Program-made: the position numbers and the translations under genes
The notes under the pieces: model-generated
Database searches by the model: none
What the model was told of the DNA's origin: nothing
What the model saw: only the letters and a program-made list of their open reading frames with translations
In this document: positions 2,922 to 7,844 of the stretch, one piece after another
How the letters are laid out: the number at the start of each line of letters is the position of its first letter
Position numbering within the stretch: position 1 is the stretch's first letter
Virus record (IMG/VR): IMGVR_UViG_3300025646_000481
Location: 1-20,620 of that record
Length of the DNA stretch: 20,620 nucleotides
DNA from: a virus
Direction: 5' to 3' (one strand)

Positions 2922-3266
2922 ATGGCAAAGGAGGATAATTTAAAATCATATAAGCCCGGACAAAGTGGAAACCCAAACGGGAGACCTAAAGGAAGTAAGA
3001 ACAGAAGCACCATTGCAAAGTATTGGTTAGAAGTAAATCAGAAACTTAAAAACCCTATTACTGGGGAGGATGAGACAATGAGCCAAGAGGACTTAATGAC
3101 GTTGGCATTAATCAAAAAAGCAAGAGAGGGTGATGTATCTGCATATAAGGCATTGATGGATTCAGGGTATGGAGCTCCAGTACAACAGATTGAGCAACAG
3201 CAGACCAACATTGACCTTTCTAATCTATCAACAGATGAAATAAAGGATTTACTAAAGGATGAATAA
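2922..3266 (+). CDS. DUF5681 protein, probable small terminase subunit
   Basis: A 114-residue basic protein beginning with the DUF5681 signature YKPGQSGNPNGRPKGSKNR (residues 10-28), a Gly/Asn/Pro/Lys-rich strip often found just upstream of phage large terminases. The rest is helical with LMTLALIKKAREGDVSAYKALMDSGYG (59-85). Its 3' end overlaps the large terminase start by 8 bases. Position and family association indicate the DNA-recognition subunit of the packaging motor, binding the cos or pac site before the large subunit cuts. No classical HTH is obvious, so the function rests largely on context. Confidence 0.7.
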   Translation: MAKEDNLKSYKPGQSGNPNGRPKGSKNRSTIAKYWLEVNQKLKNPITGEDETMSQEDLMTLALIKKAREGDVSAYKALMDSGYGAPVQQIEQQQTNIDLSNLSTDEIKDLLKDE

Positions 3267-4602
3267 AAAAGAAGTAGTTAAGGAAATATTAAGAGCTGAA
3301 CTCTCAAGACGTTTGTTTTGGGAGTTTTGTCTATTTTATGACAAAGAGTTTTTCGGTAAACGATCTTTTTTAAAACAAGTTGCAGACGGTTTCCAATTAA
3401 TCGAGGACGGTAAAATAAACAGCCTTTCGGTATCAATGCCACCAAGAGCGGGAAAATCGTATATAACAACACTTTACAGCGCGTGGGCTTTAGGTAAGAG
3501 CCCACAGGAAACGGTAATGCGTAACACTTGTACGTCTACTTTATACCTAAAATTCAGTTACGATGTGCGAAATGTTGTTAAAAGTGAAAAATTCCAAAAG
3601 GTATTTTCAAACGTTAAATTATCAGACGACAAAGCAAATCTACATGGGTGGAATACAAACCATTCAAGACAGGTTGGATATTTCGGTGCTGGAGTTCATG
3701 GAACAATTATCGGATTTGGTGCTACCAAATTAGCTATTACGGATGACCTTTATCGAGGTTTAGAGGATGCTTTATCTGATACAATTAATGACGGAATATT
3801 GCAATGGAAAGAGGGAACGCATGATACCCGAATTGAGAAAAGTTGTAGCCGAATTGATATTGGTACACGTTGGAGTATAAAGGACGTTATCGGGCAAAAT
3901 ATGGATGCTAACAGGTACGATTTAAGCATCGTTATCCCAGCATTAGATAGTGAGGGTAAATCATTTTGTGAGGACGTTATGAGCACCGAACAATACGAAG
4001 ATATAAGGGGGCGAATAAATCCCGATATTTGGAGCGCTGAATATATGCAAGAGCCAGTCGATTTAAAAGGTAGGCTATTTAGTGGACTTAACAAAGTTCA
4101 AACTATCGATAAAACAAAAATAGAGGGCTACGTTGGTTATATTGATGTATCAGACCAAGGAGCGGATTTTACAGCAATGGCAATAGGTGGAATAATTGGA
4201 AATCAAGTGTATATTGTTGATTACGTATTTACCCAATCAAACACCGATATTACACTACCTTTATGTGCTCAAAAGTTAAATGACTGGGGCGTAAAATATT
4301 GCCGTGTTGAAAGTAATAGTATGGGGGCTATGTTTAGCCGACAACTGCAGAAATTAACTAAAACGCAAATATTACAGGTTAATAACACTACAAACAAGAT
4401 TACAAGGATTATAATGGAAAGCGCCTTTATAATTAACTCCTTTCATTTTTTAGAGGTTAATAGTATAGATTACCACCAATTTATTGGTAATGTAGAAAGT
4501 TTTAGTAAAGAGGGTAAAAACAAACACGACGATGCCCCCGACTGTTTAGCTGGGTTATCAATGTTTTTAAAGGGCTTATTTCCTAAGCTATTCCAATTAT
4601 AG
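3259..4602 (+). CDS. Phage terminase large subunit
   Basis: A 447-residue packaging motor with both domains visible. ATPase: Walker A PPRAGKS (61-67), Walker B LAITDD (158-163) and motif III-like IDIGTRW (199-205). RNase H-like nuclease: YIDVSD with Asp296, VESNSMG with Glu351 and HDDAPD with Asp424/425/428. This order is that of Terminase_6-type large subunits, and the length is normal. It cleaves concatemeric DNA and translocates it into the prohead through the portal. It starts inside the end of the DUF5681 gene, and its last 20 bases overlap, tail to tail, the 3' end of the portal gene on the other strand, which is not the usual terminase-portal arrangement. Confidence 0.95.
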   Translation: MNKKEVVKEILRAELSRRLFWEFCLFYDKEFFGKRSFLKQVADGFQLIEDGKINSLSVSMPPRAGKSYITTLYSAWALGKSPQETVMRNTCTSTLYLKFSYDVRNVVKSEKFQKVFSNVKLSDDKANLHGWNTNHSRQVGYFGAGVHGTIIGFGATKLAITDDLYRGLEDALSDTINDGILQWKEGTHDTRIEKSCSRIDIGTRWSIKDVIGQNMDANRYDLSIVIPALDSEGKSFCEDVMSTEQYEDIRGRINPDIWSAEYMQEPVDLKGRLFSGLNKVQTIDKTKIEGYVGYIDVSDQGADFTAMAIGGIIGNQVYIVDYVFTQSNTDITLPLCAQKLNDWGVKYCRVESNSMGAMFSRQLQKLTKTQILQVNNTTNKITRIIMESAFIINSFHFLEVNSIDYHQFIGNVESFSKEGKNKHDDAPDCLAGLSMFLKGLFPKLFQL

Positions 4603-4611
4603 CCCTTTTTT
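4569..4611 (+). terminator. Hairpin shared by the convergent terminase and portal 3' ends
   Basis: AAAGGGCT (4569-4576) pairs perfectly with AGCCCTTT (4601-4608) around a 24-base loop, and a T-run continues to 4611. On the plus strand it would terminate the terminase transcript. The stop codons of both convergent genes (portal 4583-4585 on the minus strand, terminase 4600-4602 on the plus strand) lie within it. The minus-strand T-rich tail is poorer, so it may work mainly in one direction. Confidence 0.55.
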
Positions 4612-5788
4612 CTTCCTCAGTTAATTCAACTCCAGCCTGTATAATTTTATTAAGTGCATCCGCTTTAGAATTTAGCGCCTGAGCTTTTAAATTCATATCA
4701 TCTTGCAACACCGCAATATGGCTAAAATCAGGCTTTAAATATAAACCTTGCGATGATAATCCTAACTGCTGGCTAATTGTTGAGTACATTTGTTCTGTTT
4801 CAGGGATGATAGTATCTTGGTAAGCCATACGCATTGCTTGTTTAACTTCGTTACCATTTGCCAAAGTACCGCCGTTAACATTTGAAAATAAATTGTAGCT
4901 TAAACCGTAGGCGTCAATTATTGCAATTTTATCTTCTGTTAATTCCTCGAAAAGCATTAAATCTTTAGTTGGGTAACTCATAGGCGTCCAGTTAACATCC
5001 GCCTCAGTCATAACTAATTTATCTTTTGAACGTCTTAACCAATCTTGTTGGATTTCGTTTTTTTCTTCAGGCGTCATTGGTAATGATCCACCCATATCCG
5101 ATTTCTTACTTGATAAAATACCAATTGCACCTATATTTTCCAATATGACATTACGCTTTTTATAAGATGCCATAATATTTGACAATGGATATTTAAGGGT
5201 TTCAATTCTATTTTCAACGTTGATTAAATTGATGCCGTCTGGAGTGTTCATGTACACCATATCTTTAAGCTCAATAGTTTGATATTTTACACTATCGTAA
5301 TAAAATTGAAACTCCTTAATTAAGCCATCCACGTCAATTTGTTCTAATAACTTACCTGTTCCAACTACTTTAATTTTATTCGCTGGTAAAGGCACAATTA
5401 AGTTACGAATATCAAATGAGCGAACAGGACAATAAGCAAAAGAGTTGTTAAATAAACCATCGTTAACACTAAGGCTGTAAATGACATCCGCCCAGCTTTG
5501 TGTTGGATTTGGACTTGCAATTAAATCAAGCGCCCAATGTTGTTCAATTATATTTCCATCTTCGTCGCAAAGTAAAGGCTTACCGCTCGACATCATTAAG
5601 GCACGTTTATTAATTACCGCCCTTAGTTCAGGAATGGTAATATATAAATCGTATGGTTTTGAAGTATCAACCCATTGGGGGGTTGTATTGCCCCAGAATT
5701 GATTAACATTTCGCTGTATCATCTTTAAAAGATTATCGTTTTTCCCCGATGTTGTGCCGAAAAGTGAAGTCCAAAAGTTATCTTGCAT
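4583..5788 (-). CDS. Phage portal protein (HK97-like), inverted
   Basis: A 401-residue portal, the dodecameric head vertex through which DNA is packaged. Supporting features: ITIPELRAVINKRALMMSSGKP (50-71), typical of the portal N-terminal region; a beta-rich wing around 130-180; WTPMSYPTKDLMLFEELTEDKIAIIDAYGLSYNLF (267-301), corresponding to the stem/clip transition; and QDTIIPETEQMYSTISQQL (324-342), the family's conserved helix. Length is normal for HK97-type portals. It lies exactly where a portal is expected, between large terminase and protease, but on the opposite strand. It converges on terminase with a 20-base overlap and diverges from the protease gene, so it needs its own promoter, plausibly in 5789-5854. 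The frame is intact. Confidence 0.88.
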   Translation of the reverse strand: MQDNFWTSLFGTTSGKNDNLLKMIQRNVNQFWGNTTPQWVDTSKPYDLYITIPELRAVINKRALMMSSGKPLLCDEDGNIIEQHWALDLIASPNPTQSWADVIYSLSVNDGLFNNSFAYCPVRSFDIRNLIVPLPANKIKVVGTGKLLEQIDVDGLIKEFQFYYDSVKYQTIELKDMVYMNTPDGINLINVENRIETLKYPLSNIMASYKKRNVILENIGAIGILSSKKSDMGGSLPMTPEEKNEIQQDWLRRSKDKLVMTEADVNWTPMSYPTKDLMLFEELTEDKIAIIDAYGLSYNLFSNVNGGTLANGNEVKQAMRMAYQDTIIPETEQMYSTISQQLGLSSQGLYLKPDFSHIAVLQDDMNLKAQALNSKADALNKIIQAGVELTEEEKRAIIGIA

Positions 5789-5820: not shown

Positions 5821-5828
5821 CAAAAATA
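5821..5828 (-). promoter_or_regulatory. Putative -7 box TATTTTTG for the portal gene
   Basis: Read on the minus strand this is TATTTTTG, an exact TAnnTTTG match, 32 bases upstream of the portal ATG (5788-5786). A -33 element is weak. The portal gene must have its own minus-strand promoter, or read-through from further right, because every neighbour is on the plus strand. Confidence 0.45.
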
Positions 5829-5837
5829 CGTATTTTT
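5822..5837. repeat. Perfect 16-base palindrome in the divergent intergenic region
   Basis: AAAAATACGTATTTTT is its own reverse complement, centred at 5829/5830. Each half contains most of a TATTTTT -7-like box, one facing the portal gene and one facing the protease gene, so the two putative promoters are mirror images. It could be an operator for a dimeric regulator or simply two abutting promoters. AT-rich DNA makes short palindromes common, but 16 perfect bases in a 66-base regulatory gap is notable. Confidence 0.6.
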
Positions 5838-5854
5838 ACCAAAAAATTTGTATA

Positions 5855-6601
5855 ATGAGTAAACTAATTAATGGTTATAATCTAAAATCACTTACTGAAA
5901 TTAAAGATATTTCGTTGGGAAAGCGTGAAGTTGCTATGTATTTAAGCAAGTTCGATGTGTTAGATAGTGATAAAGATATTATAAAAAAAGGTGCTTTTGC
6001 AAGGAGTTTAAAAGATAGGGGAGTTGATAGCCCGAGCAATAGAAAGATTGCATTTTTACGCCATCACGACTGGCAACAACAGATTGGTAAATGGCTAAAA
6101 TTAGAGGAAAATGATTTAGGTTTATTTGCCGTTGGTAAATTGGGTACTTCAACAATGGGCGAAGATGCATTACGAGATTATGAAGAGGGAATAATTAAAG
6201 AACACTCGATTGGATTTCAATACATGACTGATAACGTTCGAAAAGTTGACAATACAGACGGCTCATTTCACTATGAAATATTTGAAGTTAAACTTTATGA
6301 GGGTTCGGCGGTTACTTTTGGAGCAAATGAGTTTACAGAGGTTTTAGCCATTGGAAAATCTGAGAATAAAGTCCAATTAGTTGAGAAACTAAGTAAAGAA
6401 ATTGATATAATAACTAAAGCATTGATAAATGGTAGAGGTACAGATGAACGCCTTTATAATTTGGAAATGAAACTAAAATACTTAAATTCGCGTTTAATCG
6501 ACCTTGCAATGATGCAGAGTGCTATTAGTTCCAAAGCACAAGCGGAGCAAATCGACAATAAACCAAATTTTGATTGGAACAAATTAAATAATTTATTGTA
6601 A
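5855..6601 (+). CDS. Prohead maturation protease (HK97-type, peptidase U35)
   Basis: A 248-residue serine protease that removes the scaffolding delta domain of the capsid protein inside the prohead. Visible features are REVAMYLSKFDVLDSDKDIIKKGAF (24-48), the catalytic-His region AFLRHHDW (66-73, His70 or His71) and the catalytic Ser region KEHSIGFQ (115-122, Ser118), followed by YEGSAVTFGAN, typical of the family. The C-terminal 70 residues are helical and may have a scaffolding role. I chose the ATG at 5855: the longer reading from a TTG at 5783 would cross the whole portal/protease intergenic gap and add an implausible Phe/Tyr-rich 24-residue leader. It starts the co-oriented head operon, 16 bases before the capsid gene. 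Confidence 0.9.
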   Translation: MSKLINGYNLKSLTEIKDISLGKREVAMYLSKFDVLDSDKDIIKKGAFARSLKDRGVDSPSNRKIAFLRHHDWQQQIGKWLKLEENDLGLFAVGKLGTSTMGEDALRDYEEGIIKEHSIGFQYMTDNVRKVDNTDGSFHYEIFEVKLYEGSAVTFGANEFTEVLAIGKSENKVQLVEKLSKEIDIITKALINGRGTDERLYNLEMKLKYLNSRLIDLAMMQSAISSKAQAEQIDNKPNFDWNKLNNLL

Positions 6602-6617
6602 AACTAAAATTTTAAAA

Positions 6618-7844
6618 ATGGAAGAAAATCAATTAACACCCGAACAAGTGGTGGCAAAATTTGAGGGTAAAATTGCAGAGGCTGTAAAGGGCTTCGTACC
6701 TCAATCGGAATTAGATGCGGTTAAATCGCAATTAGAAGCTGTTAAATCTTTAACCGAAAAAAACAGCGGTTCAGATGAATTAAAAGTAAAAATGGTAGAA
6801 CTTGAAAGTTCAATCAAAGCTTTAAAAGAGGCATCTAAGGAAGCTCCTAAAAGTGCTAAAACTTTAGTTAGCTTATTAGCTGAAAAATCGGAAGAAATTA
6901 AAACAGCTTTAAAGTCAAACAAAAAGTTTGAATTAGCATTAAAAGCTCAACAAGACCCAACGGACATTGGTACACGTACCGATTATGCTACTTTCTTACC
7001 GGGTACAATATTCAAACCTGTAAGAGCTACGAGAATTATTGATTTATTCCGTAGAGTTCCTGTATCAACTGAGTATGTGAAATACAGAGAAGAAAACGTT
7101 GTAACTAGAGATGCTAAAGTGGTTGTGGCTTGTGCTACTTCAACAAGTACGACTAAGAAAAGTTGGGTTACTAGAACGGTACAAATCCAAAAAATCAGGG
7201 ATATGGTTGACCTGTGCCTTGATATGGTTGATGACTATGCGTTTGTGGCATCAGAAATTGAGCAGTTAGTTGGGCAGTCAGTGAAATTAAAAGAAGATAG
7301 CGAAATTTTATTAGGTTCGGGAGATATTTTGTCAATCGATGCAATTTCTTCGGAGTTTGATCCTGCAAACGTTTTAGCTCCTTACACTGGTGCGTTTACT
7401 TCTGCAACTTTAGCTGAATTAACTGCTGCAATGAAAGCACAAATTTACACGTTCGGTCAAGAAAATAGCTGGAATGCTGATACTATCGTGATGAATTATA
7501 ACGACTACGTTAAGTTTATGCACCAAAAGAACAGTCAAGGCGATTACTTATTACCAAACTTTGTAATGAGTGGCGATGGCGTTTTAAACGGTATGCGTAT
7601 CGTAACTTCTCCATTAGTAACAGCTAACAGTTTATATGTGTTTGACAGTACTAAAGGCGAAATTTTGGATAGACAAGGTGCAACTTTAGAAATGAGCTAC
7701 GAAAACAACGATAATTTCGAACACGAAATTGTTACTTTAAAAGTTGTTGAGCGTATTCAATTCCACGTTGCACAAATCAACCAAGATGCTTTTATGAAGT
7801 GTTCAGATATTGCAACTGCATTAACAGCAATTACAGCTCCTTAA
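6618..7844 (+). CDS. Major capsid protein (HK97 fold)
   Basis: A 408-residue precursor. Residues 1-110 are charged and helical (ELDAVKSQLEAVKSL, ELESSIKALKEA), matching the N-terminal delta domain that scaffolds assembly and is then cut off by the protease encoded just upstream; the cut is inferred to lie near residues 105-115. The HK97-fold part follows: GTIFKPVRATRIIDLFRRVPV (129-149) for the N-arm/E-loop region, KEDSEILLGSGD (225-236), a spine helix near 264-280, VMNYNDYVKFM (291-301) and GMRIVTSPLV (325-334), a typical P-domain strand. Length and position after the protease are normal. It begins after an A-rich leader with no Shine-Dalgarno sequence. Confidence 0.93.
   Translation: MEENQLTPEQVVAKFEGKIAEAVKGFVPQSELDAVKSQLEAVKSLTEKNSGSDELKVKMVELESSIKALKEASKEAPKSAKTLVSLLAEKSEEIKTALKSNKKFELALKAQQDPTDIGTRTDYATFLPGTIFKPVRATRIIDLFRRVPVSTEYVKYREENVVTRDAKVVVACATSTSTTKKSWVTRTVQIQKIRDMVDLCLDMVDDYAFVASEIEQLVGQSVKLKEDSEILLGSGDILSIDAISSEFDPANVLAPYTGAFTSATLAELTAAMKAQIYTFGQENSWNADTIVMNYNDYVKFMHQKNSQGDYLLPNFVMSGDGVLNGMRIVTSPLVTANSLYVFDSTKGEILDRQGATLEMSYENNDNFEHEIVTLKVVERIQFHVAQINQDAFMKCSDIATALTAITAP

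Follow-up and report, generated by a model that had tools for sequence, protein, structure and literature searches.

Why an essential head gene should face against all of its neighbours is the question raised by the portal gene of a 20,620-nucleotide stretch of viral DNA (IMG/VR record IMGVR_UViG_3300025646_000481), which was analysed at its full length and is referred to here as the window. The late operons of phages are commonly regarded as fixed blocks of genes that all run the same way. The order of the genes for the large terminase subunit (TerL), the portal, an S78 protease and an HK97-fold capsid protein fits an HK97-type packaging and head module (Table 1), but the co-orientation expected of such a module is broken in the window, as it is in relatives, by a portal on the opposite strand; in the strand map of the 20,620-base record, all other identifiable genes lie on the plus strand. 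A preliminary description had reported this portal as inverted with an intact frame between plus-strand TerL and protease genes, and open reading frame, Pfam and PHROG analyses confirmed it. The stop codons of portal and TerL are convergent, with a 20-bp overlap of the 3' ends, and the starts of portal and protease are divergent and 66 bp apart. Since the differences from its nearest inverted relatives are concentrated at third codon positions (8, 2 and 69 differences by codon position against L062, and likewise a third-position excess against the others), the minus-strand portal gene is evidently under purifying selection. The DUF5681 gene directly upstream of TerL is, judging by its position, probably the gene for the terminase small subunit. 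Adjoining the terminase genes at 1392-2878, genes for an FkbM-type methyltransferase (PF05050) and then a Tet/JBP-type 2-oxoglutarate oxygenase (PF12851), beside a ParB-domain protein, possibly form a DNA base-modification cassette. A 103-aa protein encoded at 161-472 contains only a DnaA C-terminal DNA-binding domain (PF08299, E 4.7e-10).

Table 1. Genes and predicted expression signals around the inverted portal gene of the window.
Feature	Position	Strand	Remarks
DUF5681 protein gene, directly upstream of TerL	2922..3266	+	PF18932, E 3.7e-16
Terminase large subunit (TerL) gene	3259..4602	+	Profile matches; convergent with portal
Terminator-like hairpin AAAGGGCT...AGCCCTTT, then T run	4569..4608	+	-9.0 kcal/mol, at convergent TerL/portal 3' ends
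Portal protein gene	4583..5788	-	Intact ORF, 401 aa; Pfam Phage_portal PF04860, E 2.4e-22; PHROG 2662/12
Near-palindrome CAAAAATACGTATTTTTA (TAnnTTTG / TAnnTTTA back to back)	5821..5838	.	Sole motif match in window, 0.05 expected
Predicted portal-directed -7 box TATTTTTG	5821..5828	-	Exact TAnnTTTG
Predicted protease-directed -7 box TATTTTTA	5831..5838	+	One mismatch to TAnnTTTG; exact in many relatives
HK97-type prohead protease gene	5855..6601	+	PF04586, E 7e-22; TIGR01543; divergent from portal
HK97-type major capsid protein gene	6618..7844	+	PF05065; TIGR01554

The inverted portal is widespread among relatives. A first portal search yielded 10 contigs, in which the portal and any terminase, protease or capsid gene present lie on opposite strands. 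Alignment searches with terminase, capsid and portal widened the locus set to more than 200 loci among the matches listed, one of the portal searches contributing the best 80 of 362 matches, and the 104 dereplicated portals among these matches comprised 54 inverted and 50 non-inverted ones. All fetched contigs, from many metagenomes, whose portal is at least 70% identical to that of the window are inverted among the matches listed; the closest non-inverted portals there, those of L098 and L099, are 68% identical, and the identity of inverted portals to the window extends down to about 55%. The distant relatives (about 25-30%), which include gut phages, Polaribacter phage Danklef, Flavobacterium phage 11b and Bacteroidota MAGs, are all co-oriented. 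In a fully read relative of 36.6 kb (G003) the portal is the sole predicted minus-strand ORF, and complete-looking relatives likewise use one strand throughout except for the portal, some maps also showing a few short, possibly spurious ORFs on the other strand. The comparison with related genomes proposed in the preliminary description thus revealed a conserved inversion instead of close relatives with a plus-strand portal, and the recurrence of the same arrangement in independent metagenome contigs rules out both misassembly and chance. Accidental single-gene inversions can arise and be carried along, but it is scarcely conceivable that a misassembly or a chance inversion in one genome, devoid of selective meaning, would be alike in many independent assemblies, be kept down to about 55% portal identity and coincide with a conserved promoter motif; neutral fixation may have been the cause of the original inversion event. 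An inverted multi-gene block was also ruled out, since in relatives the cargo between TerL and portal sits on the terminase strand, and the portal alone is therefore reversed. No description of an inverted portal was found in the literature searched, which does not prove that none has been published.

In the portal tree, a co-oriented clade of 39 members (SH-aLRT 99) stands against the inverted lineages, and the co-oriented L098 and L122 are nested among the latter. A minimum of 4 orientation changes is needed in this tree since L098 and L122 are unpaired there; in the protease and TerL trees, where the two pair with each other, 2 changes each are needed, as also in a four-gene concatenated tree. 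All of these were quick-search trees with support by SH-aLRT only. A clean split into inverted and co-oriented members was rejected by the AU test (p 1.7e-89), and one inversion plus one re-inversion, in L098/L122, is the simplest reading. With distant outgroups added, which sit on long branches, the base became a polytomy and 3 changes were counted. Alternatively, the inversion may date to the base of the whole group, with two reversions afterwards, and given the long-branched outgroups and the basal polytomy the ordinary orientation is not certainly ancestral and maybe reflects a second reversion. Within the lineage the portal has returned to the ordinary orientation on one or more occasions, and the inverted state has been kept over long evolution. 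Having at least one reversion in the lineage might bring to mind a phase-variable invertible segment, by which the portal flips on or off the head operon. We regard this as highly improbable, as the switching segment considered in the preliminary description finds no support: the window holds only short imperfect AT-rich pairs and no long flanking inverted repeats, and portals at least 70% identical never face the other way among the matches listed. Moreover, no recombinase was noticed nearby, and the portal should be essential whichever way it faces.

How a reversed portal might be expressed is suggested by the spacer between the portal and protease starts, which measures 49-139 bp in inverted relatives and usually holds the near-palindrome CAAAnnTA-NN-TAnnTTTG. 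This sequence resembles a pair of abutting Bacteroidota -7 promoter boxes that point away from each other and is a candidate promoter. The element TAnnTTTG is the sigma-A -7 box both in Flavobacterium psychrophilum (PMC9723704) and in Bacteroides (PMC7366714). All 12 core bases are matched in 16 of 47 spacers and at least 11 in 26, although these spacers, being related by descent, are not 47 independent trials; among dinucleotide shuffles, 0.3% reach 11 core bases and none reaches 12. Across 27 distinct sites the core columns carry 1.1-1.7 bits, values somewhat inflated by the choice of sites at 10 or more core matches, compared with 0.4-0.8 bits at the interleaved free positions and mostly lower values in the flanks. 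A fixed core with variable interleaved positions is the pattern that two -7 boxes would show. About 7 of the 47 spacers are without a clear palindrome, and in the group of L031, L161, L163 and L167 the minus-strand box is present in a different layout. Single TAnnTTTG boxes occur in the window at chance-level frequency, so that the argument rests on position and conservation and not on the bare box; in 18 records scanned whole, the motif was concentrated at the portal-protease spacer, with four matches elsewhere or unplaced. The aligned sites display no conserved block at the distance of a -33 TTTG, and in F. johnsoniae the -33 motif is likewise unidentified (PMC7366714). The separate minus-strand transcript that had been postulated for the portal thereby receives support from the sequence, a sigma-A type -7 box lying upstream of the gene as in most relatives. 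In the other direction, the protease is presumed to be the first gene of a rightward head and tail operon with a predicted promoter.

Regulators, too, classically act at dyad-symmetric sites between divergent genes, and the palindrome could instead be an operator, flanked by two ordinary divergent promoters and bound by a dimeric repressor or an activator of late genes; in P2, a single activator site is shared by the two divergent late promoters. Such an operator seems unlikely to us, since conservation on each strand coincides exactly with TAnnTTTG, the free positions are asymmetric in 8 of 15 sites with 12/12 matches compared by eye, and a lone TAnnTTTG precedes the portal in non-inverted relatives. 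In these relatives the box is found within 80 bases upstream of the portal in 40 of 41 cases, accompanied by an antisense box in only 2 of 41, and it occurs upstream of the protease in 7 of 38 and upstream of TerL and capsid in 0 of 39 and 0 of 33, respectively. From its presence at the portal and its lack at TerL and capsid, the late head operon of non-inverted relatives would probably begin with the portal, which would have a promoter of its own. Among the seven that have a box before the protease are the re-inverted L098 and L122, which keep a -7 box both before the portal and before the protease, and also L130, L139, L176, L192 and L207, which branch deeply or sit on long branches in the co-oriented clade. 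Of 15 distinct non-inverted promoters, 6 have an antisense box with one mismatch within 4 bp, where base shuffles would give 5%; a pre-existing symmetry of the ordinary promoter was nevertheless set aside, as most of these antisense boxes are in TerL codons and have a different spacing.

We consider it likely that an old, stably inherited inversion of the portal together with its promoter gave rise to one near-symmetric two-way promoter in these HK97-type phages of presumed Bacteroidota hosts. The starting order would have been TerL, the promoter and portal, protease and capsid on a single strand, with a -7 box just before the portal. If the portal moved with its own promoter, its -7 box would have come to abut the box reading into the protease; in an ancestor with boxes before both genes an inversion would thus juxtapose them, and a re-inversion with a breakpoint at the motif centre, as presumably in L098/L122, would split them again. 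Promoter activity, mutual exclusion and the setting of a ratio are what we infer from the observed orientation, its conservation, the motif and the tree. During late expression, RNA polymerase would bind the symmetric site facing either way, producing leftward a short portal transcript and rightward, from the mirror half, a long protease-capsid-tail transcript, and the strength of the two half-sites would set the ratio of portal to head transcripts. The half-sites of the window are unequal, the portal half being exact and the protease half having one mismatch. An independent timing of portal expression, which the preliminary description had envisaged, agrees poorly with a portal -7 box directly back to back with the presumed head-operon box. 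Since RNA polymerase could use such abutting boxes in only one direction at a time, a common timing is favoured, and common timing with a ratio governed by predicted half-site strength is more likely than independent timing. More tentatively, and with considerable doubt, portal orientation could be an evolutionary toggle that leaves expression undisrupted, inversion fusing the boxes and re-inversion splitting them, while polymerase competition sets the portal-to-capsid ratio.

The interval on the other side of the portal is far less constant. The TerL-portal gap ranges from -20 (window) to +3164 bp in inverted relatives, and the larger gaps hold terminase-strand cargo such as an HNH endonuclease and a carbohydrate-active-like domain, whereas the gap is 32-152 bp in non-inverted relatives except for the re-inverted L098 (936 bp). 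The gap of L098 carries an extra gene, weakly phosphoesterase-like, and many inverted relatives also have an extra gene there; that of L098 is possibly a further trace of inverted ancestry. In L031, a short part of the cargo gene at 10021-10848 matches the profile of an arabinofuranosidase catalytic domain (PF09206), and the predicted product of this gene may be a receptor-binding or decoration protein. The narrow gap of all but one of the non-inverted relatives, against up to 3.2 kb with cargo in inverted ones, would suit an inversion whose purpose is to insulate the portal from the terminase and to make room for cargo between the two; we hold this to be improbable, since the window and its nearest relatives are without cargo in this gap, and cargo therefore looks like a consequence of the inversion and not its reason. 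Likewise, the possible antisense overlap with TerL pointed out in the preliminary description is unlikely to be the point of the inversion, as the gap is so variable and the 20-bp overlap of the window is not conserved. A minus-strand terminator after the window portal was looked for at the convergent 3' ends and none was found. Clear minus-strand intrinsic terminators lie 3' of the portal in L031, L032, L033, L161, L170 and L211, and their presence in several lineages marks the portal as a self-contained unit.

Parts of the module are also exchanged among relatives. Close relatives (L008, L009 and L017; window 4583-4700) have two alternative portal C-terminal tails, ...EEKRAIIGIA or ...ARLELGYPVKEEQERVV, which are exchanged between otherwise similar portals. 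In L031, L032, L161, L163 and L167 the capsid gene is located downstream of two small head genes and not directly after the protease, and the capsid of L031/L032 is only about 25% identical to that of the window; portal and protease remain together in these five while the capsid is swapped or moved.

The hosts of the inverted-portal viruses are probably Bacteroidota, to judge by the promoter type and the distant relatives only. A search of bacterial genomes for a host returned only one relative (53% identity), in a MAG labelled Rhodobacteraceae. The co-oriented relative L150 (RFQY01000125.1) lies within a MAG with this label, and since its promoter and relatives look Bacteroidota-like, this contig is probably mis-binned.

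Flavobacterium phage 11b and its relatives, with a portal about 25% identical to that of the window, have the same order of TerS, TerL, portal, (others), protease and capsid, but with all genes on one strand. A closer parallel in orientation is P2 (Peduoviridae; late operons PQ and ONMLXY...), whose portal gene (Q) is also divergent from the scaffold/protease-capsid operon (O, N) with a shared intergenic control region. Portal divergence per se is therefore not new, and the premise that packaging and head genes are transcribed together, which may stand as the usual case, was too strong as a universal one. In P2, however, the large terminase gene (P) is on the portal strand as the first gene, whereas TerL of the window is on the plus strand and convergent with the portal; a distance of 111 bp that includes an annotated activator site separates the divergent starts of P2, whereas in the window lineage the -7 boxes abut. 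There is no evidence of common descent of the two arrangements. What sets the window lineage apart from P2 is a portal that moves by itself, -7 boxes directly adjoining each other and repeated changes of orientation within a single lineage. For the promoter itself, the nearest counterpart is the bidirectional promoters described by Warman, Grainger and colleagues (PMC12825309), in which a near-symmetric core allows polymerase to bind either way with steric exclusion; the likeness is one of sequence only, near-symmetric core elements being present on both strands of the window within one RNA polymerase footprint. In E. coli, such promoters share a -10 element, with starts mostly 18 bp apart and 10 and 23 bp also common, and are not occupied in both directions simultaneously, competition mattering only at high activity (PMC12825309). 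The window spacer differs in having two complete, abutting TAnnTTTG-type boxes, with predicted starts about 27 bp apart (taking the box as -12 to -5), and in the conservation of this pair within a phage head module.

Across the breadth of this phage lineage an essential head gene runs in reverse, with at least one return to the ordinary orientation, and a promoter signature marks the joint. The spacer, found by comparison, provides a conserved candidate for a symmetric promoter composed of Bacteroidota TAnnTTTG boxes, and the lineage as a whole represents a natural comparative experiment in which gene orientation and promoter architecture can be set against portal stoichiometry.
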